From Labedella endophytica (lineage in GTDB: Bacteria > Actinomycetota > Actinomycetes > Actinomycetales > Microbacteriaceae): 64,000 bases of DNA. The notes under the pieces were generated by a model, which had not been told where the DNA came from, ran no database searches, and saw nothing but the letters and a program-made list of their open reading frames with translations. This document shows, one piece after another, positions 11,547-20,226 of this stretch; position 1 is the first letter of the stretch; every line of letters begins with the position of its first letter. Position numbers and translations under genes: made by a program. Location of the stretch: contig NZ_RZGZ01000003.1 in NCBI RefSeq assembly GCF_003990045.1, positions 248,001 to 312,000 on the forward strand. Direction: 5' to 3'.

Positions 11547-11607
11547 GATCCTGCACCCGTGATCGCCGCGCGGATGCCTGATCACGCTGTCGGGGGAGAT
11601 GATCGCT

Positions 11608-12477
11608 GTGAGTTCGGGACAGCCCATCCAGTCCGACCGCGCTCGCCGCACGATCGCGCGTTTCGCCGGCGCCTCGTGGACGGCCGGCGCGATCATCATG
11701 GCGCTCATCGCCTTCGGCACCTTCAGTCGTCTCGCGGTCGACGGAGACACCGGCCGACTCTTCGAGCCTGGTGGGGGCGGCTACAGCGACTACCCGTGGG
11801 AGGACGAGAACCTCCCGGAGGCGCAGCCGGACGCGAACGACCCCGACGTCTACGTCGGCAACGGCAACGCCGTCATCCGGATCGACGGCGTGACGACGGC
11901 GCCTCTGCAGGTCACTCCGATCGACGGCGAGTACATCCGGCTCTCGATGACGGAGAGCGGCGACATCGACCCCGAGCTGCCCGTCGAAGATCGCGAGTGG
12001 CCGCTGCGCGTCGGCTATCCACAGGAAGACCTGCCCTCCGTCGTGTTCCCCTACGCGGGGACCCTCGAACTGTGGGTCCAGGCTGACGAGCAGTGGATCC
12101 TCCGCATCGAGGAACTCGTCGCCGACGAGATCACGGACGTCGTCTCCGGCCAGGGCAACAGGCTCCTCGTCTATCGGGGCAACGCCGTGAGCGCGCTCTT
12201 CGAGTTCGTCGGCGACGGTGTCTTCATCGTCACGGCGTATTCGCGCGAGGTCGGCGAGGAATCCCTCATCATCGAGAGCGACCCGATCGAGCAGCGGCAG
12301 TCGTGGTCGCCGTCCGATGTCGTCGTCCTGAGTATCGAATCGAGCGCCGACCGCGGAGCCTGGGTCGTCGACATCGACTCCTACGATGATGACGATGAGA
12401 GCACCCCGACTCCCGGCGAGACGCCGACGACGTCGTCCGAGCCGACCGATCCCCCCACCGAGCAGGAGACCCCGTAG
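11608..12477 (+). CDS. Membrane-anchored extracytoplasmic protein, first gene of Ycf46 cluster
   Basis: I do not recognise the family. The 289-residue protein has a basic N-terminus, one transmembrane helix at about residues 24-43 (TAGAIIMALIAFGTFSRL), then a beta-rich extracytoplasmic region and a Pro/Thr/Ser-rich tail (TPTPGETPTTSSEPTDPPTE). The mature region has no cysteine. GTG 11608 is chosen because GGGGGAG lies nine bases upstream; ATG 11599 would touch that ribosome binding site. It is followed with no gap by the AAA+ ATPase gene. A role as a membrane sensor or anchor for the cluster is inferred only from position. Confidence 0.75.
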   Translation: MSSGQPIQSDRARRTIARFAGASWTAGAIIMALIAFGTFSRLAVDGDTGRLFEPGGGGYSDYPWEDENLPEAQPDANDPDVYVGNGNAVIRIDGVTTAPLQVTPIDGEYIRLSMTESGDIDPELPVEDREWPLRVGYPQEDLPSVVFPYAGTLELWVQADEQWILRIEELVADEITDVVSGQGNRLLVYRGNAVSALFEFVGDGVFIVTAYSREVGEESLIIESDPIEQRQSWSPSDVVVLSIESSADRGAWVVDIDSYDDDDESTPTPGETPTTSSEPTDPPTEQETP

Positions 12478-14115
12478 ATGGCCGACTTCGTGAAGACCCT
12501 CGACCAGGCGTTCAAGGCCCGGCTCCCGCTGCTCTACATCGAGACGAGCGAGGAGGAGCGGGTGATCCAGGAGATCGGCCGCGCCGCCGGGCAGCTGCGG
12601 CACCCGCGTCAGGTGTGGACATGGTCGTCCGCGACGGGACTCGTGTCGCCCGAGTCGAAGATCATCTCGAACACGACCAATCCGTCCCGCGCGCTCGAGC
12701 ATGCGCAGACCGTCACCGAGAACGCCGTGTTCGTGTTCTGCGACCTGCACGCGTACTTCGGGTCGGAGGGCCGGCCAGGGGACCCCGGCATCATCCGGAA
12801 GGTGCGCGAGGCGGTGCTGGAGTTCCGGCACGGCGACCTCGGCCGGGCACTCGTCGTGACCGCGCCGGTTCGCGCGATCCCGCCGGAGCTCGACAAGCTC
12901 ACGAATCTCGTGGAGTTCCCCCTGCCGGAGCGGAAGGAGCTCTCCTGGCTCCTCGACACGATGATCGACAACAACTCGTCGGGCTCGGGGCGCATCCGGG
13001 TCAAGGCGTCGACCGGCGACCGGGAGAAGATGGTGCAGGCTGCTCTCGGTCTCACGATGGCCGAGGCGGAGAACGCCTTCGCGCGGGCCATGGTCGACGA
13101 CGGCGCACTGACGACCGACGACATCGACATCATCCTCGACGAGAAGCGGCAGACCGTCCGGAAGGCCGGTCTGCTCGACTTCGTGGACAACGGCATCGAC
13201 CTCGACCAGGTGGGCGGCCTCAACAACCTCAAGCGCTGGCTGTCGCGGCGCGACGGCTCCTGGCTCGCGGAGGCCGAGGCCTTCGGGCTGCCTGCTCCGA
13301 AGGGAGTGCTCATCACGGGCGTTCCCGGCTGCGGGAAGTCCCTCACGGCGAAGGCGACGGCCGCATCGTGGGACATCCCGCTTCTCCGCCTCGACATCGG
13401 CAAGATCTTCGCGGGGCTCGTCGGCTCGAGCGAGCAGAACCTGCGTACGGCGATCGCGACGGCGGAGGCCGTCGCACCCTGCATCCTCTGGGTCGACGAG
13501 ATCGAGAAGGGGTTCTCGAACACCACCGGATCCGGCGACTCCGGCACGACGGCGCGCGTGTTCGGCTACTTCCTCACATGGATGCAGGAGAAGACCAAGT
13601 CCGTCTTCGTCGTGGCGACAGCCAACAACATCGACGCACTGCCGCCGGAATTCCTCCGCAAGGGCCGGTTCGACGAGATCTTCTTCGTCGATCTCCCCAC
13701 GGGAATCGAGCGCGACGCGATCTGGCGCATCCAGCTCGCGTCGCAAGCGACCCCGGCCAACGGCCTCGCGCCGCTCGCGTCAGACGCGAGCGTGATCGAC
13801 CGCCTCACGGCCGCATCCGAGGACTACTCGGGCGCCGAGATCGAGCAAGCGGTCGTCGTGGCGATGTACGAGGCCTTCGCCGGAGGGCGCACGGTTACGA
13901 TCGACGACCTCGAGAAGGCCATCACCTCGATGATCCCGCTCGCGGTGACGCAGTCGGAGGAGGTCGCGGGCATTCGCAGTTGGGCGGCGCTCCGGGCCGT
14001 GCGCGCGACGGGCAGCGAGGACGCGGACCCCGCTCAGGACGATGCCCAGGCGGGGGTCCCGGCCACGGGAGCCGACCTCGCGAAGCGCCGCGGCGGCCGC
14101 ACGGTGGAATTCTGA
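12478..14115 (+). CDS. Ycf46-like AAA+ ATPase
   Basis: A 545-residue AAA+ protein of the group that includes chloroplast and cyanobacterial Ycf46. Residues 1-200 form the characteristic N-terminal domain ([26 protein letters not shown]). The ATPase core has an intact Walker A GVPGCGKS at 281-288, Walker [11 protein letters not shown] with Asp340-Glu341, sensor-1 VVATAN, arginine-finger region RKGRFDE, and sensor-2-like GAEIEQAV. It should therefore hydrolyse ATP as a ring to remodel a partner. Unlike FtsH it has no protease domain. The start directly follows the upstream stop; the stop overlaps a 15-codon ORF. Confidence 0.88.
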
Positions 14116-14162
14116 TGAGCACGGTTCTGGTGAACGGCAACGGATGGAGGAGGAACGCATGA
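14115..14162 (+). CDS. Possible 15-residue micropeptide between ATPase and DUF2997 genes
   Basis: The ATG shares one base with the ATPase TGA stop (TGATG), and the TGA overlaps the DUF2997 start as ATGA. The product would be [15 protein letters not shown]. The purine-rich GGAGGAGG ribosome binding site of the next gene lies inside it. It may be a mere coupling device or chance; it is listed because of the exact overlaps and because a radical-SAM gene follows. Confidence 0.3.
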   Translation: MSTVLVNGNGWRRNA

Positions 14163-14380
14163 CGCAGAAGCAACTCGTCGTCCAGGTGCGACGTGACGGC
14201 ACGGTGCACGCCGAGACCATCGGCATGCAGGGCGCCGAGTGCCTCGACTACATCGCCGTTCTCGAGAACCTGCTCGAGGCGGAGACCACCGAGTCGGCCT
14301 TCACGGACGACTATCACCGCACCGGGGTCGACGACTCCGCCGGCGTGGTCGCGGAGGACCGCGATGCGCTCGGTCGCTGA
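14159..14380 (+). CDS. DUF2997-like small protein
   Basis: A 73-residue protein whose first 45 residues match the DUF2997 pattern: a strand QLVVQVRRDGTV, a turn, and GAECLDYIAVLENLL. The invariant-looking Gly-x-x-Cys-Leu is at about residues 25-29. The acidic C-terminus (about 45-73) is variable. DUF2997 proteins accompany Ycf46 and DUF1257 in cyanobacteria, so this is the same functional set. The single Cys next to the helix could ligate metal or accept a modification. The start has a strong GGAGGAGG site seven bases upstream; the 3' end overlaps the next gene by 17 bases. Confidence 0.75.
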   Translation: MTQKQLVVQVRRDGTVHAETIGMQGAECLDYIAVLENLLEAETTESAFTDDYHRTGVDDSAGVVAEDRDALGR

Positions 14381-15074
14381 CCTCCTCGACCGGCCCGTGC
14401 CGGAGCGCCGGTCGGGGGAGACGCTCCGCTGGTCACGCTTCCTGGCGTCGACAACCGCGGAAGGACCGGGCGTCCGCTCGGCCCTGTGGTCGCAGGGGTG
14501 CTCCGTCCACTGCCCCGGGTGCTTCAACCCGCACCTGTGGGCCGCGGCGGGTGCGCGTCTCGACGACACCGCGGCTCTCGCCGAACGTTTCGCCGCCGAG
14601 ACCGAGGCGGCCGGCGCGGAGGGCGTCACCCTCCTCGGCGGGGAGCCCTTCGACCAGGCCGAGGCGCTCGCCGTCGTCGCGGAGGCCATGGCGGCGCGCG
14701 GCCTCACTGTGATGACCTTCAGCGGGTACACCCTCGACGCCCTCACCGGGTGGGCGGCGGAGCGCGACGACATCGCGCGCCTGCTCGCCGCCACCGACCT
14801 GCTCGTGGACGGTCCGTACCTGCGCGATCGCCCGGACGCGATCCGGCCGTGGCTCGGATCGACGAACCAGGGGATCCGCGCACTGAGCCCCGCGTACGCC
14901 GACGTCGTCGCGCGGATCGATGCCGACGGAGGCCGCGACCGGGTCGAGATCCGGATCGACCGTGACGGCCGCATCGATGTGAACGGCTGGGCCGACGACG
15001 CGGCCCTCGCCATCCTGCTCGACGATCTCGGAGTGAGGGCCGACGCCCCGTTCCGGAAGGAGAAGAACCGATGA
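14364..15074 (+). CDS. Radical-SAM / 4Fe-4S single-cluster activase-like protein
   Basis: A 236-residue protein resembling NrdG and pyruvate-formate-lyase activases. The cluster-binding motif is GCSVHCPGCFN, with Cys46, Cys50 and Cys53 in CxxxCxxC spacing. GGEP follows at about residues 95-98 for S-adenosylmethionine binding, and DLLVDGPY marks the second half of the barrel. No glycyl-radical enzyme or anaerobic ribonucleotide reductase is encoded nearby, so an activase role would need a different partner. Residues 175-236 are a C-terminal extension. It overlaps DUF2997 upstream by 17 bases and DUF1257 downstream as ATGA. Confidence 0.83.
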   Translation: MRSVADLLDRPVPERRSGETLRWSRFLASTTAEGPGVRSALWSQGCSVHCPGCFNPHLWAAAGARLDDTAALAERFAAETEAAGAEGVTLLGGEPFDQAEALAVVAEAMAARGLTVMTFSGYTLDALTGWAAERDDIARLLAATDLLVDGPYLRDRPDAIRPWLGSTNQGIRALSPAYADVVARIDADGGRDRVEIRIDRDGRIDVNGWADDAALAILLDDLGVRADAPFRKEKNR

Positions 15075-15568
15075 GTGTCACGATCCTCCTCATCCCCGTC
15101 GCGCTCGCCGCGGCGTCCCTCGCCGGCGGGGCGGGACTCGGCGCGGCGAACCGCGCCCGGGACGAGAGCCGACGGGCCGGAAACCCCAGTACCGCCCTCA
15201 CCGTGCGCACACGCATGAAGGACCGTGGGCTCCTGGGGCTCGCGCTCGACGACCTCGGAGCCCTCGACGTCGTCGCCGGTGAGACGCAGGTGACGGCGAC
15301 CATCGACGACATCCGCCTCTCGATGACGCTCACCGAGGATGACGTCTGGGAGGCCCACATGGACAGGGCCGACGGCATCGCGGTGGACGAGGACATCGCC
15401 CGTGACATCCTGACCCGCCTCGACGCCGCCTACGCCGGTCGGGTCCAGTCGGCTGTCGCCGAGCGGATCCGGGCGCAGGCCGATTCGGCCGGCTTCGAGC
15501 TCGTCTCCGAGACGCGCGACGAGGCCTCGACGGTCACGATGGTGCTCAACGTGCGACAGGACGTGTGA
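15071..15568 (+). CDS. Membrane-anchored DUF1257-like protein
   Basis: A 165-residue protein with an N-terminal hydrophobic helix (about 1-25, ILLIPVALAAASLAGGAGLG) followed by a domain resembling DUF1257. The start of the domain, TALTVRTRMKDRGLLGLALDDLG, and its end, ILTRLDAAYA followed by FELVSETRDEASTVTMVLNV, match the pattern of DUF1257 members that sit beside Ycf46 and DUF2997. The membrane helix is unlike the soluble cyanobacterial versions. Assignment rests on motif resemblance, so a profile search is the deciding test. ATGA overlap joins it to the radical-SAM gene. Confidence 0.65.
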   Translation: MSVTILLIPVALAAASLAGGAGLGAANRARDESRRAGNPSTALTVRTRMKDRGLLGLALDDLGALDVVAGETQVTATIDDIRLSMTLTEDDVWEAHMDRADGIAVDEDIARDILTRLDAAYAGRVQSAVAERIRAQADSAGFELVSETRDEASTVTMVLNVRQDV

Positions 15569-15575
15569 CGACACG

Positions 15576-16385
15576 GTGACGAGTGCGCTCAAGACGTCGA
15601 GGTGGGGAGGGCCGGACGGTCCGTCCGCCCGGTGGTTGTTACTCACGAGCATCTGGCTCGTGTTCGTGCTGCTGCCGAACGGCGTCACGACCTGGCTGGG
15701 TTTCGCGTTCATCGGTTTCGCGATGCTCCGTCCCGTGTGGATCGCCGCGAGCGTCGCGTACTTCGTCGCGACGGTCATGATCGAGACCACAGAGGCGCTC
15801 GGGGCGTGGAGCGTCGTGCTCGGCGGAGTGCTGTGGGTCGTCGGGATCGCGCACGGCATCGCAGCGAACCGAACGTGGCAGACAACGCTCTGGAGCCGGA
15901 TGGAACGAGGACTCTCGCCTCTTGGCCGGGGGCGACCGTCACGGAGCCGCCGAACCGCGTCGCGCCGATCCGGCCGCGATGTCCCCGACGAGGCTGTCGG
16001 GCTGCTCGACGCCGCGGGCACCGACGGCAGCGACTACCTCGCCGAGACACCGAGCGGCGGTCGGACATCGGCGTCCGGTCGCTCGTCGCGAGCATCGCGC
16101 GGTCGGACGCCCGCGCCGAACACGCGGCAGAAGGCGCTGCCGACGACCCCGGTCGACGTGAACACCGCCACGCAGAAGGCGCTGCAGGCCTTGCCCGGCT
16201 TCACGCGCCAACGGGCGAAGGCGGTGCTCGCCGAACGCGAGCGACTCGGGGGCTTCAGCTCGGTGGAGCAGTTCTCCGCCGTCGCCTCGCTCCAACCGCA
16301 CGAATTGACGCGGCTGCTGCCCGTGCTCGAGTGCTCGCCGCGACCCCGGCGGGCGCGCTCGTTCGGTCGCCGCGTCGATCTCTGA
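15576..16385 (+). CDS. Membrane protein with C-terminal helix-hairpin-helix domain
   Basis: A 269-residue protein. Residues 20-95 contain three hydrophobic segments (WLLLTSIWLVFVLLPNGV, FAFIGFAMLRPVWIAASVAYFVA, VVLGGVLWVVGIAHGIAA). A basic Ser/Arg-rich linker (100-185) leads to a ComEA-type helix-hairpin-helix domain: VDVNTATQKALQALPGFTRQRAKAVLAER (about 192-222). Such domains bind DNA or act as protein-protein modules. GTG 15576 lies 7 bases after the DUF1257 stop. It ends the cluster and places a possible nucleic-acid- or protein-binding module at the membrane. Confidence 0.78.
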   Translation: MTSALKTSRWGGPDGPSARWLLLTSIWLVFVLLPNGVTTWLGFAFIGFAMLRPVWIAASVAYFVATVMIETTEALGAWSVVLGGVLWVVGIAHGIAANRTWQTTLWSRMERGLSPLGRGRPSRSRRTASRRSGRDVPDEAVGLLDAAGTDGSDYLAETPSGGRTSASGRSSRASRGRTPAPNTRQKALPTTPVDVNTATQKALQALPGFTRQRAKAVLAERERLGGFSSVEQFSAVASLQPHELTRLLPVLECSPRPRRARSFGRRVDL

Positions 16386-16473: not shown

Positions 16474-19400
16474 GTGTGGAGGCTAGATCGACGAAACAAT
16501 GACGGCGTGCTCGAGACCGGGGACGCCGCCGGTGGTGACGTGCTCGGGCCCAACACGACGCAACCGCACGACCTCAGCCTCGGGGATCCGACCGTGACGG
16601 TCGCGAACGTCGCGGATCGCACGCGCGAGCAGTGGCGCGAAGAGCTCACGATCGTCGGGGGTCGCTCGCCGCTCCTCCACTTCGTCGACGCCGCCCACAC
16701 CGGTATCGAGCTGAGCGCCACACACCCCGGCGGACTCCCGCAGTTCATCACCGGCCAGTCGACGCTCCTGTCGAACCTCATCCGTGACGAGGTCGCGCTG
16801 CGCCGCGCGAAGGTCTCGGCCGATCTGATCACCGCGAAGGGCATCGAGCTCCGCAGCGTGCGCGGCATCGACGCCGTCCACCTCGCCGTCGGCCTCGCGC
16901 ACTGGCGCTTCGAGGGCGACGACTACTGCGCCCCCGTGCTGCTCCGGCCGCTCGCGATCCGTCGCTACGGCAGCGACTTCGAGCTCAAGCTCACCGGCAC
17001 GACGGTGCTCAACCCGGAACTCGCCCGCGCCCTGCGCGAGCAGTTCGGCATCACCCTCGACGCGACCGCCTTCGAGGCCCTCGCCCACGCGGGTGACGTC
17101 TTCAAGCCGCAACCGGTCATCGATCGACTGCGCGGACTCACGTCGCACCTCGACTGGTTCAACGTGCAGCCGCGCCTCGTCGTCTCCTCGTTCGCCGACG
17201 CGAGTGCGGGTCTCGTCCACGACACGCGCAGCCTCGACCACCCCGTGCTCGACGCCCTCGCCGGCAACCCGGGATCGCGTCGCCTCATCGAGGGCATGAG
17301 TTCGCCGGTCGACCCGGTGCCGCAGGATGAGCGCCCGCCGACCACGGACACGCTGCTCCTCGACGCCGACTCCGAGCAGGAGAACGTGATCGCCCAGATC
17401 GTGGCCGGGCAGTCCATCGTCGTCCGCACGCTTCCGGGCACCGGCGGCACGCAGACCATCGTGAATGCCCTCGGAGAGCTCGTCTCGAAGCACAAGCGCG
17501 TGCTCGTCGTGAGCCCGCGCCGCTCGAGCCTCGACGGCATGCGTCACCGCTTCACGGGAGTCGGCCTCCCGGGCCTGGCGGCCCACCCGTCCACGCTGCG
17601 GCGCGACCTCGTGACCGCGATCTCGCGGAACGAGAAGGCGAAGGCGCCGCGTGTCTCGGACGTGGACGACGCACTCGTCCGTCTCCGCAAGGTGCTCATC
17701 GACTACAGGTCGTCGCTCGTGTCGATCGACCACCTGCTCGGGGTCTCCGTCGTCGACGCTCTCGATGCGCTCACCGCCCTCGCGAACAAGCCGGAGTCGC
17801 CGTCCACGACGGCCCGACTCGGTATGCACTCGATCACCCAGCTCGCGCAGGGACGCGAGGAGACGGCGAAGGCTCTCGCCCACGCGGCCGCCCTCGGCGA
17901 GTTCCAGTACGGTCCGGGCGACTCGCCCTGGTACGGCGCGCACTTCGCGACGACCGAGGACGCCAAGGCGACGCACGAGCTCGCGAAGAAACTCAACCGC
18001 AGCGAGCTGCCCCGGCTCCTCGAGCGCGGGTACGAGCTCATCGGTCAGACCCGGATGCGGCCCTTCGAGACGCTCGAGGAACTCGGCATCTACCTGCGGC
18101 TGCTGCTCGACGTGCGCGAGACGCTCGACAAGTTCCAGCCCTCCGTCTTCGACCGCTCACTCGCCGAACTCATCGCCGCCACCGATTCGCGCCGCGAGTC
18201 GCCGGGCATGGCGTCGGCGAACCGCCGCCGTCTCAAGAGGCTCGCGAAGGAGTACGTGCGTCCCGGGGTGCACATCTCCGATCTCAACGGAGCGCTCCGT
18301 CGCGTGCAGCAGCAGCGCATCCTCTGGCAGCGCTACGTCGACGCGGGGGTCACGCCCGAGGTGCCGCTCGGCATCGCCGACGTCCAGGTCGCCTACCAGC
18401 GCGTCGTCGCTGACCTCGGTCAGCTCGACGGGCCGCTCGGTCGCGAGGACGCCGCCGACCGCCTCGTCGCCGCGCCCGTCAAGGAACTCGTCCGCATGAT
18501 GTCCGGCCTCGCCGCCGAGTCCCAGGTGATGGACAACCTGCAGGAGCGCACGACCCTGATCGCGGAGCTGCGGGAGAAGGGTCTCGACGACCTCCTCGTG
18601 GATCTGTCGAGCCGGCACGTGCCCGAGCACCTCGTCGCGGACGAGCTCGAGCTCGCGTGGTGGCAGTCCGTCCTCGAGAACGCGCTCGCTTCGGACAAGG
18701 CCCTCCTCGGTGCGAACACGCAGGTCATCGATCGACTCGAGGCGGACTTCCGTCTCGTCGACGAGGCGCACGCGTCGGCCTCCGGGGGGATTCTGGCCGG
18801 GATGCTCGCGGACATGTGGAAGATCGGTCTCGTCGACTGGCCGGACGAGGCGCTCGCCCTTCGCACGCTCTTGCGCGGCGACGGCGTCATCTCGCCGGCC
18901 GACGTCGAAGCCGCGGCCCCGCACCTCGCGCGCTCGCTGTCGCCCATCTGGGCGATGTCGCCCTACGACGTGCCCTCCCTGCCGGATTCCCTGCGGTTCG
19001 ACGCGGTGTTCCTGCTCGACGGGGGAGCGACTCTGCTGTCCGAGAACGTCGGCGCCATCCGCCGCGCGAAGCAGGTCGTCGTGTTCGGTGACCCGGTCAC
19101 CCAGAGCCCCACGCCCTTCGAGATCGCCATCGGCGCTCCCGACCAGACCTCGTCCCACCACGAGGTGGACGTCGACGAGCTCGCGTCGCGATCGGCCTTC
19201 GCCCGTCTCGGCGAGCTGCTGCCAGGTCTCCAGCTCACGCGGAGCTACCGGGCGGGAGGCGAGGACCTCGCCGAGCTCGTGAACCAGCGCTTCTACGGCG
19301 GCGAGATCGACTCCCTGCCGTGGGCCGGATCGTTCCTCGGACACGGGTCGCTCACGCTCGACTACGTCGCGAACGGCCACGGTATGCCCGATCCGCTCAC

Positions 19401-20226
19401 GGGCACGGTGGAGTCCGTCGATCCCGAGGTCGCTCGCGTGGTGAGCCTCGTACTCGAGCACGCCACCAACCGCCCGCGCGAGTCCCTCATGGTCGTGACG
19501 GCGAGCGAGAAGCACGCCGTGCGCGTGCAGCAGGCCGTCCTGAACGCGTTCTCGCGCCGCAGCGACCTCTCCGACTTCATCCTCCGGGAGCGCGCCGAGC
19601 CCTTCACCGTGCTCACGCTCGAGCAGTCCGAGGCGGAGAGCCGCGATCGGGTCATCTTCTCCCTCGGGTTCGGCGTCACGCCCCACGGGCGCGTGCTGTC
19701 GACCTTCGGTGCCCTCGGTCGTCCGGGTGGCGACCGCTTGCTCGCCGTCGGGATGACGCGCGCACGTCGCTCGATGGTCATCGTCTCGTGCATCCGACCC
19801 GACGACATCGATCCCGAGCGCATGCAGCACGGGATCGTCGCGCTCGCGCAGATCCTCCGCGAGCCGCCGCGTCGCGACCCGCGCCCGCCGGTGACCGACG
19901 GTGCGCAGCCGATGCTGCTCGACCTCGCCGAGCGCCTCTACCGTTACGGCCTCAACGTGGAGATCGGATATCGCGGCTCGATCGCTCTCGTCGCCGCGTA
20001 CGGGTCGAAGGCCGTCGCCATCGAATCCGACCCCGAGGTCGGGCTCGAGTCGCTGCGGGAGTCGCTCCGTCTGCGACCCGATGTGTTGCGGCGCCTCGGC
20101 TGGCACTACATCCGCGTGCACAGCTTCGACCTGTTCGCCGACCCGGAGGGTGTGGCCCGTAACGTCATGTCGATCCTCGGCGCCCCCCTCCCCGACGCGG
20201 CGGACACGGGTGTCGTCGCCTCCTGA
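16474..20226 (+). CDS. Superfamily-1 helicase-like protein with degenerate ATPase motifs
   Basis: A 1250-residue protein with the architecture of large DUF4011/UPF1-like helicases: N-terminal domain (about 30-260), split RecA-like core, long helical insert (about 430-790), second RecA half, and a C-terminal Vsr-like nuclease-fold domain (about 1150-1245, LRPDVLRRLGWHYIRVHSFDLFADPE). Walker A reads LPGTGGTQT at 320-328, with Gly325 where lysine is required. Walker B reads FLLDGGA, with Gly850 where glutamate is expected. Motif VI, AVGMTRARRSMVIV, is intact. ATP hydrolysis is therefore doubtful; a structural or DNA-binding role is more likely. Confidence 0.8.
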   Translation: MWRLDRRNNDGVLETGDAAGGDVLGPNTTQPHDLSLGDPTVTVANVADRTREQWREELTIVGGRSPLLHFVDAAHTGIELSATHPGGLPQFITGQSTLLSNLIRDEVALRRAKVSADLITAKGIELRSVRGIDAVHLAVGLAHWRFEGDDYCAPVLLRPLAIRRYGSDFELKLTGTTVLNPELARALREQFGITLDATAFEALAHAGDVFKPQPVIDRLRGLTSHLDWFNVQPRLVVSSFADASAGLVHDTRSLDHPVLDALAGNPGSRRLIEGMSSPVDPVPQDERPPTTDTLLLDADSEQENVIAQIVAGQSIVVRTLPGTGGTQTIVNALGELVSKHKRVLVVSPRRSSLDGMRHRFTGVGLPGLAAHPSTLRRDLVTAISRNEKAKAPRVSDVDDALVRLRKVLIDYRSSLVSIDHLLGVSVVDALDALTALANKPESPSTTARLGMHSITQLAQGREETAKALAHAAALGEFQYGPGDSPWYGAHFATTEDAKATHELAKKLNRSELPRLLERGYELIGQTRMRPFETLEELGIYLRLLLDVRETLDKFQPSVFDRSLAELIAATDSRRESPGMASANRRRLKRLAKEYVRPGVHISDLNGALRRVQQQRILWQRYVDAGVTPEVPLGIADVQVAYQRVVADLGQLDGPLGREDAADRLVAAPVKELVRMMSGLAAESQVMDNLQERTTLIAELREKGLDDLLVDLSSRHVPEHLVADELELAWWQSVLENALASDKALLGANTQVIDRLEADFRLVDEAHASASGGILAGMLADMWKIGLVDWPDEALALRTLLRGDGVISPADVEAAAPHLARSLSPIWAMSPYDVPSLPDSLRFDAVFLLDGGATLLSENVGAIRRAKQVVVFGDPVTQSPTPFEIAIGAPDQTSSHHEVDVDELASRSAFARLGELLPGLQLTRSYRAGGEDLAELVNQRFYGGEIDSLPWAGSFLGHGSLTLDYVANGHGMPDPLTGTVESVDPEVARVVSLVLEHATNRPRESLMVVTASEKHAVRVQQAVLNAFSRRSDLSDFILRERAEPFTVLTLEQSEAESRDRVIFSLGFGVTPHGRVLSTFGALGRPGGDRLLAVGMTRARRSMVIVSCIRPDDIDPERMQHGIVALAQILREPPRRDPRPPVTDGAQPMLLDLAERLYRYGLNVEIGYRGSIALVAAYGSKAVAIESDPEVGLESLRESLRLRPDVLRRLGWHYIRVHSFDLFADPEGVARNVMSILGAPLPDAADTGVVAS

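Follow-up and report, generated by a model that had tools for sequence, protein, structure and literature searches.

A mobile five-gene cassette built around a predicted Ycf46-type AAA+ ATPase in Labedella endophytica

The genes ycf46 and ycf35 are long-standing orphans of cyanobacteria and algal plastids. Papers on them report a cyanobacterial cluster duf2997-ycf35-fed7 (PMC4284462); an operon, slr0373-slr0374(ycf46)-slr0376, that reacts to oxidative stress, salt and high light as well as to a lack of iron, sulphur or nitrogen, with lower activity of the carbonic anhydrase EcaB upon loss of Ycf46 (PMC7496141); a more than 11-fold rise of ycf46 in threonine-treated Microcystis (PMC12172450); and a presence of ycf35 and ycf46 across 127 red-algal plastids that differs between marine and freshwater species (PMC5940233). 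Here we describe a locus in a 64,000-nucleotide stretch of the genome of Labedella endophytica (Microbacteriaceae; contig NZ_RZGZ01000003.1, positions 248,001 to 312,000, hereafter the window). Its five-gene core, B to F, occupies positions 12478-16385, the letters A to F denoting genes in order along the + strand. Plasmids and heterotrophic bacteria thus carry the same proteins in a compact cassette with a predicted radical-SAM enzyme and a membrane partner that bears the same C-terminal tag as the ATPase, and viral contigs hold partial versions of it. The cassette is a real, mobile and uncharacterised five-gene system assembled from families that are themselves already known. We found no description of it, of the shared tail or of its independence from glycyl-radical enzymes in the open-licence literature. 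The features are as follows:

11599..12477, + strand: A, N-terminally membrane-anchored protein (open reading frame, ORF; hydropathy peaks at residues 18-43)
12478..14115, + strand: B, predicted Ycf46-type AAA+ ATPase, ending in GGRTVEF (Pfam AAA, 104.3 bits; Walker A and Walker B motifs present)
14092..14112, + strand: C-terminal tail of B, GGRTVEF, shared motif (tail count among B ORFs; disordered in the model)
14115..14162, + strand: 15-codon ORF bridging B and C (from the sequence)
14159..14380, + strand: C, DUF2997 protein of 73 aa (PF11211, 50.8 bits)
14364..15074, + strand: D, predicted NrdG/PFL-AE-like radical-SAM protein with CxxxCxxC and a DUF2997-like C-terminal extension (Fer4_12, 101 bits)
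15071..15568, + strand: E, DUF1257 (Ycf35)-like protein with an N-terminal hydrophobic segment (hhalign with cyanobacterial DUF1257)
15576..16385, + strand: F, membrane segments, linker and HHH_3 domain, ending in GRRVDL (HHH_3, 48.2 bits)
16365..16382, + strand: C-terminal tail of F, GRRVDL, shared motif (tail count among F ORFs)

Gene content, linkage and spread

Relatives of B were collected by tblastn against named genomes at E 1e-3 or better, a threshold that may let in other AAA ATPases among the 537 stretches with a relative. The best 80 of these, together with 13 further loci (L001-L013) that may repeat named ones, form a set of 93 loci, in which the families were found by iterative profiles. 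The 80 named loci are not independent, 19 of them being from Microbacterium; the closest named match of B is in Labedella phragmitis (87%). The loci come from Actinomycetota, Bacillota and Gastranaerophilales, and B, C, D, E and F were detected in 90, 88, 84, 87 and 89 of the 93, respectively. All five genes lie on one strand within 8 kb in 73 of the 80 named loci, which excludes a chance grouping, and the gaps between them are short or negative. When A and duplicates of F are ignored, the core appears in nine orders (BCDEF 31, BECFD 19, BCEFD 9, FDBEC 8, CFDBE 2, and one locus each of DFBCE, CDBEF, BCFDEF and DEFBC). Because these nine orders are kept, the linkage is more than inherited synteny, and its persistence through reordering across phyla is strong evidence of joint function. 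The remaining named loci are either one gene short (L015 and L049, which end nearby, and L046, with E on the other strand) or hold B and F alone (L058, L060, L079 and L086; the contig of L060 ends there). L046, from Arthrobacter, is a rearranged copy: D is separated from two tailed F genes by E and a tail-less F-like ORF, both read from the opposite strand.

The cassette is carried by mobile elements and is patchy among relatives of the host. B-like ATPases occur on 29 plasmid records, and both plasmids inspected, from Rhodococcus aetherivorans (typed conjugative) and Paenarthrobacter (typed non-mobilizable), hold all five genes together; their annotations read AAA ATPase, hypothetical, DUF2997, helix-hairpin-helix and 4Fe-4S proteins. 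B and F end there in the tail-like sequences GGRTFEF/GRRLEF and GGRQIDF/ARKLDI. With the own genome counted in both samples, DUF2997 was found in 11 of 349 genomes of the same family and in 3 of 396 genomes of the phylum (2 above the cut-off). A different picture emerges in Cyanobacteriota, where of 117 genomes 68 have B and DUF2997, 6 have B only, none has DUF2997 only and 43 have neither. Viral contigs, the longest of 479 kb, also carry B-like ATPases: a relative is encoded in 389 of the 555 candidate stretches, and among these relatives other AAA ATPases are possible. Within about 4 kb of the ATPase, the best 80 viral loci (L200-L279) hold DUF2997 in 27 cases, a D-like radical-SAM protein in 16 and DUF1257 in 10. 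Matches to B also turned up in 54 of 50,697 phage records, of which 31 are from Mycobacterium phages. No function is known for PHROG 8638. A short contig from the same phylum (L197) has B, DUF2997 and a DUF1257-like ORF beside what look by eye like ArdC-like, MazF-like and TOPRIM-like genes, and is perhaps a phage, a plasmid or a contamination.

The first-pass annotation, made from the letters alone, had proposed a membrane-associated unit of six genes around an ATPase, all overlapping or abutting. All six ORFs are present on the + strand, and the neighbourhood survey bears out a linked unit kept together across phyla for five of them, with A as the exception. As to their spacing, A and B abut, C shares its last 17 bases with D, and an ATGA joins D to E, but gaps of 43 and 7 bases separate B from C and E from F. 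The 15-codon ORF between B and C shares one base with the stop of B (TGATG) and four with the start of C (ATGA), and it could possibly act as a translational coupler of the two. The start of A is uncertain (ATG at 11599 or GTG at 11608). When A, B, D, E and F were scanned, 19-residue hydropathy peaks of at least 1.6 were seen in A, E and F, and none in B or D.

A tail common to the ATPase and the membrane protein

B and F are otherwise unrelated, and end in the same short motif. Of the complete ORFs, 85 of 90 for B and 82 of 87 for F finish with the pattern R-x-[VIL]-[DE]-hydrophobic at the extreme C-terminus, a count that leaves out 12 F ORFs cut by locus ends. A typical B ends in RGGR-[TAS]-[VIL]-[DE]-[FY] and a typical F in GR-x-[VIL]-D-[YFLV]. 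Six-frame translation of the 93 loci gave 15,546 ORFs of 40 residues or more, of which 152 end in the strict form G[RK].[VIL][DE]-hydrophobic, and all 152 are genes of the system; A, C, D and E do not carry the tail in any of these loci. Three of the five F misses are near-misses (GRVMDV in L052, SRRLFD in L085 and NGRIID in L087); the others are in L046 and in L018, where the ORF lies about 5 kb upstream and may not be F. In the structural model of B (mean predicted local distance difference test score, pLDDT, of 77.6), residues 503-545 fall below pLDDT 50, and a disordered tail is as expected of a docking peptide.

The smallest versions of the cassette retain the motif. Paenibacillus athensensis (L079) and a betaproteobacterial metagenome-assembled genome (L086) hold B and F, both tailed, and searches of the two genomes found no DUF2997, no E and no full-length D; the D search gave nothing in L086 and a partial match in L079 (positions 5-90 of 205, E 3.6e-18). 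Since these genomes keep both tails, the tail seems to serve B and F. The genomes of the other two loci with B and F alone, L058 and L060, have DUF2997 elsewhere. In Gastranaerophilales-type loci (L133-L145, of which L133 repeats L066) the B tail is present in 13 of 13, while F was seen in nine and is tailed in seven, being one residue short in L142 and L144. The tail is absent from all 17 cyanobacterial Ycf46 proteins of loci without F, some of which end in YQRMEF and share the last residues only. It is likewise absent from a second Dactylosporangium locus of the form C-D-B' (L196) and from two cyanobacterial loci (L198 and L199). Among the 80 viral loci kept, B is tailed in 23, and F was found within about 4 kb in L200 only. 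Other tailed genes amount to 1 of 645 in viral loci with untailed B and to 2 of 270 in those with tailed B, both being the F genes of L200.

Two further roles for the tail were considered. As a genome-wide client tag it was rejected: the own genome gave 20 matches to the DNA pattern (8 in a read-backwards control), 12 of them with a true stop, and only B and F were judged to be real genes by frame length and GC content at third codon positions (GC3); this pattern fixes the glycine, and other forms of the tail would escape it. The glycine of the tail as a glycyl-radical target of the radical-SAM protein is disfavoured as well, because the tail persists in B-F pairs that have no full-length D, and because this glycine is replaced in 14 of 82 tailed F proteins (e.g., AERIIDL).

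The encoded proteins and their neighbours

The call of B as an AAA+ ATPase holds, with a Pfam AAA match of 104.3 bits and both Walker motifs. Cyanobacterial homologues align to positions 3 to about 517 of the 546 of the B profile, N-terminal domain included, with up to 642 bits. By this full-length homology B qualifies as a probable Ycf46-type ATPase, the cyanobacterial AAA family being one that we take to be Ycf46. The names Ycf46, Ycf35 and Fed7 are applied to the relatives here on the same understanding or after the cited papers. A Foldseek search with the B model aligned it to p97, Cdc48, Rix7 and AFG2 over roughly 540-600 columns at E of about 1e-19. The AAA domain of B comes nearest to residues 458-702, the second ring, of a VCP-like ATPase. 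B would then be a hexameric remodelling ATPase of the p97/Cdc48 kind.

D was predicted from the letters to be a radical-SAM protein with an intact iron-sulphur motif, and we reach the same assignment. It matches Fer4_12 with 101 bits and Radical_SAM with 29.3 bits, just under the 29.5 cut-off, and C46, C50 and C53 of its CxxxCxxC motif are the same in all 37 aligned sequences, among them that of the window; membership of the radical-SAM superfamily thus appears secure from sequence. Its NrdG (TIGR02491) match of 87.5 bits is below the cut-off of 126.1, and its closest solved relative is the PFL-activating enzyme. The C-terminal extension of D resembles DUF2997 in profile comparison (probability 70.8, E 3.8e-5, against 0.3 for a reversed control and 0.1 for the N-terminal part of D), and, by eye, a comparable extension can be seen on several D-like proteins encoded next to B and C in viral loci. 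As noted in the first pass, no glycyl-radical enzyme lies in the vicinity of the cassette; the own genome does have one, a PF01228 protein on another contig. Among ten genomes with D, PF01228 was found in four (the own one included) and NrdD in two, one genome belonging to both groups, and neither was detected in the remaining five (G428, G541, G634, G743 and G745). D therefore has another substrate, at least in these hosts, and it is not in general the activase of a classical glycyl-radical enzyme. The first pass had suggested DUF2997, DUF1257 or the ATPase as possible targets, and the DUF2997-like extension of D is the lead here. DUF2997, which accompanies D in all 73 full loci, is a small protein, and its co-presence, its invariant residues and its kinship with the extension of D make it the most specific candidate substrate, a suggestion that is speculative.

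The DUF2997 assignment of C is confirmed, at 50.8 bits against a PF11211 cut-off of 24.1. Gly14, Cys28 and Thr49 are invariant in 37 of 37 aligned sequences, and the cysteine is also present in all 30 cyanobacterial sequences compared. A search by sequence for a solved relative of C gave nothing convincing (best E 0.61). The case of E is more indirect, and the DUF1257 claim stands by homology and not as a Pfam hit. The E protein of the window has no Pfam match to DUF1257 (PF06868), a DUF1257 search of the own genome was negative and only 4 of 37 aligned E proteins match it, weakly (best E 0.0013). However, profile-profile comparison (hhalign) of the 37 E proteins with 19 cyanobacterial proteins gave a probability of 92.7 and E 4.4e-7 over 109 columns. 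A profile of E made from L001-L093 also picks out, in 29 of 30 cyanobacterial loci, an ORF next to DUF2997; two of those 29 ORFs were scanned and are DUF1257 proteins at 157 and 153 bits. By these comparisons E is best described as a divergent DUF1257 relative outside the Pfam family. Of what was to be looked for in the cassette, then, a DUF2997 match and a conserved neighbourhood were both found, and DUF1257 by profile-profile comparison only. The membrane helix predicted at the N-terminus of E is seen as a hydropathy peak at residues 3-21, and the soluble part is modelled mostly above pLDDT 90. A fold search with E gave nothing at E 0.001 or better (best weak hits OGG1, PA4090 and Flpp3), and the best candidate for a solved DUF1257 relative by sequence, a designed NTF2-fold protein at E 0.003, was taken as chance. 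In Sinomonas (L085) and in the two plasmid versions (L280 and L281) E has an extra CEKCK motif (CxxC) after the hydrophobic N-terminus, possibly a metal site, and several Gastranaerophilales-type loci (L135, L137, L138, L139, L142 and L144) have an E two to three times longer with repeated E-like matches.

An iron-sulphur partner is found in both versions of the system: D here, and in cyanobacteria a ferredoxin after DUF1257, with Fer4_13 in the one that was scanned and in accord with the published description (PMC4284462). In 25 of the 30 cyanobacterial loci L163-L192, the ferredoxin beside DUF2997 and DUF1257 begins with two EPELGG (once DPELGG) repeats. Beside a Ycf46-like gene we also saw one protein with DPVIGG/SPVLGG (L199) and one with DAVLGG (L198). 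Two such EPELGG-type motifs occur in 3 of 10,109 non-cyanobacterial ORFs, and they are perhaps another short docking motif.

F was correctly foreseen to be a membrane helix-hairpin-helix protein, with HHH_3 at 48.2 bits and hydropathy peaks between residues 21 and 97. Its N-terminal module varies: most F proteins have a type with four transmembrane segments (by eye), others a zinc ribbon with RDD (the two F of L087), GYF_2 (L080 and L059) or TPR (L082). HHH_3 was matched in six of seven F proteins scanned, the TPR-type one being without it. Several Bacillota and Arthrobacter loci have two copies of F, usually both tailed. Across 82 aligned F proteins, a PH is conserved in the second hairpin (P 95%, H 89%).

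Gene A had been counted as a component of the machine, a claim that does not survive. It has no Pfam, NCBIfam or PADLOC match at E 0.1, and its homologues occur in 32 of 93 loci, all from Microbacteriaceae, Arthrobacter or Georgenia (L001-L013 are too short to show A). A is a lineage-limited add-on, outside the conserved core. In 18 of the 80 named loci, all of them Microbacterium loci between L021 and L040, A is duplicated in tandem. Just downstream of the cassette, window positions 16474-20226 encode a 1250-aa helicase-like protein akin to the candidate anti-phage proteins ProA, Hhe and PDC-S37, with a weak C-terminal REase_MTES_1575 match below cut-off; as a member of the system it was rejected, being present in 1 of 93 loci (L014, Labedella phragmitis). 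Besides A and ABC-transporter ATPases, no neighbouring family recurs widely across phyla; a cluster of the latter, which belong to a very large family, lies within 5 kb in 24 loci from several phyla, and the remaining recurrent clusters are lineage-limited or small, many being antisense ORFs.

Proposed mechanism, rival explanations and known systems

We tentatively favor, as a serious possibility, a mechanism in which a p97-like ATPase is docked through its tail to a membrane adaptor, with DUF1257 and DUF2997 proteins as further adaptors and D modifying DUF2997 or a client. B would form a hexameric remodelling ring of the p97/Cdc48 type, as its predicted fold suggests, and F would anchor it at the membrane. 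The tails of B and F would bind one pocket of the B-F pair, in the ATPase ring or in the HHH domain, and by means of the shared tail F could recruit or gate B. That F changes its N-terminal module while the tail stays is counted in favor of tail docking. E and C would serve as adaptors, and the DUF2997-like extension would let D dock where DUF2997 docks. Speculatively, D would modify DUF2997, or make a radical on it, near the invariant glycine and cysteine, and this modification or radical would switch or charge the machine. The shared tail offers a six-residue handle on how the ATPase meets its partner. A bolder version, which we consider doubtful, would make the tail a portable address tag of a p97-like machine in bacteria, plasmids and phages, with tailed modules, most of them bearing HHH, fused to different membrane or sensor domains and so feeding new inputs into one ATPase, and with the 73-residue DUF2997 protein replacing the glycyl-radical enzyme as minimal carrier of a radical or modified residue for the machine's own radical-SAM enzyme.

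Several observations weigh against the favored mechanism. The p97 match is loose, with a template modelling score (TM-score) by query length of 0.28-0.48 and a root-mean-square deviation of 15-20 A among the hits listed. The resemblance between D and DUF2997 spans 33 columns only, and D stands beside DUF2997 in none of the 30 best cyanobacterial loci. The four loci with B and F alone indicate that this pair can stand without C, D and E beside it. Five B proteins (L054, L062, L065, L074 and L075, from Dactylosporangium, Actinoplanes and Paractinoplanes) are tail-less while their F stays tailed, and tail-less members of the F family exist, as in the minus-strand F-like ORF of L046. Conversely, B of L197 ends in the tail-like NKRRIEL on a 5.9 kb contig that lacks F, and in 22 of the 80 viral loci, all in one 28-member viral clade, B is tailed with no F within about 4 kb. 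The tail is thus not explained by F alone, and the idea that it is exclusive to F-bearing systems was rejected in its simple form; either it is old and was copied by F, or it arose twice.

The relationship of D to NrdG and to the PFL-activating enzyme, together with the single PF01228 enzyme of the own genome, could suggest that D is an ordinary activase and that the cassette supports anaerobic radical metabolism. This is very improbable and already disfavoured, given the five genomes that have D and no detected PF01228 or NrdD, and also G749, where two other D-like genes adjoin NrdD and a glycyl-radical enzyme and the D of the system is a third gene on another contig. It is still less credible that the cassette is a device for DNA uptake or handling with F as a ComEA-like receptor. 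F does match both HHH_3 and the comEA model (35.5 bits), but the latter far under its cut-off of 152.35; the second hairpin of F has PH in place of the GIG of ComEA, the F of L082 has no HHH_3 match and no competence gene was recognised, by eye, among the recurrent neighbours.

Two broader readings are each rather unlikely and draw on the distribution of the genes. A mobile and patchy AAA+ effector unit at the membrane, acting against phages or in conflicts between elements, would fit the scattered occurrence of DUF2997, the plasmid-borne cassettes, the ATPases of viral contigs and of 54 phage records, and the downstream gene with its likeness to anti-phage candidates. That gene, however, is a neighbour in a single locus; C, E and F have no PADLOC match, D matches only pVip, weakly (15.7 bits), and B matches only through its AAA part; the ATPase is also found in phages; and among Cyanobacteriota, with 74 of 117 genomes, it is common rather than rare. 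A housekeeping role in stress or protein maturation, as put forward in the first pass, for instance in iron-sulphur or membrane-protein repair, would in turn agree with an iron-sulphur partner in both versions and with the published cyanobacterial data, namely the stress-responsive ycf46 operon and the effect of Ycf46 on EcaB (PMC7496141) and the response to threonine (PMC12172450). Yet those data come from a version in which the ATPase is untailed and has neither F nor D next to it, and the cassette is absent from most sampled relatives of the host, and hence dispensable.

The docked-ATPase mechanism thus borrows from several known systems and coincides with none. With NrdG and the PFL-activating enzyme D shares Fer4_12 and the CxxxCxxC radical-SAM core, but it falls below the NrdG cut-off and has the additional DUF2997-like C-terminus, and the cognate enzyme of glycyl-radical activases is undetected in half of the ten D-bearing genomes. 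IetA, the ATPase of the anti-phage system IetAS, is similar to B in its AAA+ domain (PADLOC, 70.7 bits), a match limited to residues 267-488, and the conserved five hold nothing protease-like by Pfam. F is like ComEA-type proteins in having an HHH_3 domain behind membrane segments, and differs in its subthreshold comEA score, in the PH of the second hairpin and in a conserved C-terminal tail. The cyanobacterial and plastid set of Ycf46, Ycf35, DUF2997 and Fed7 is closest in content, with a homologous ATPase, DUF1257 and DUF2997, and with the co-occurrence of ATPase and DUF2997. In that version the ATPases are tail-less (17/17), no F or D was found beside the genes, a ferredoxin being there instead, and DUF1257 has, unlike E, no N-terminal hydrophobic segment (12 of 12 rows). 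As for p97, Cdc48 and VAT, B aligns with them over roughly 540-600 columns in the fold search, with a TM-score below 0.5; B is shorter, its first domain has no AAA match, and its tail sequence and partners are different. p97, too, docks cofactors through its C-terminal tail.

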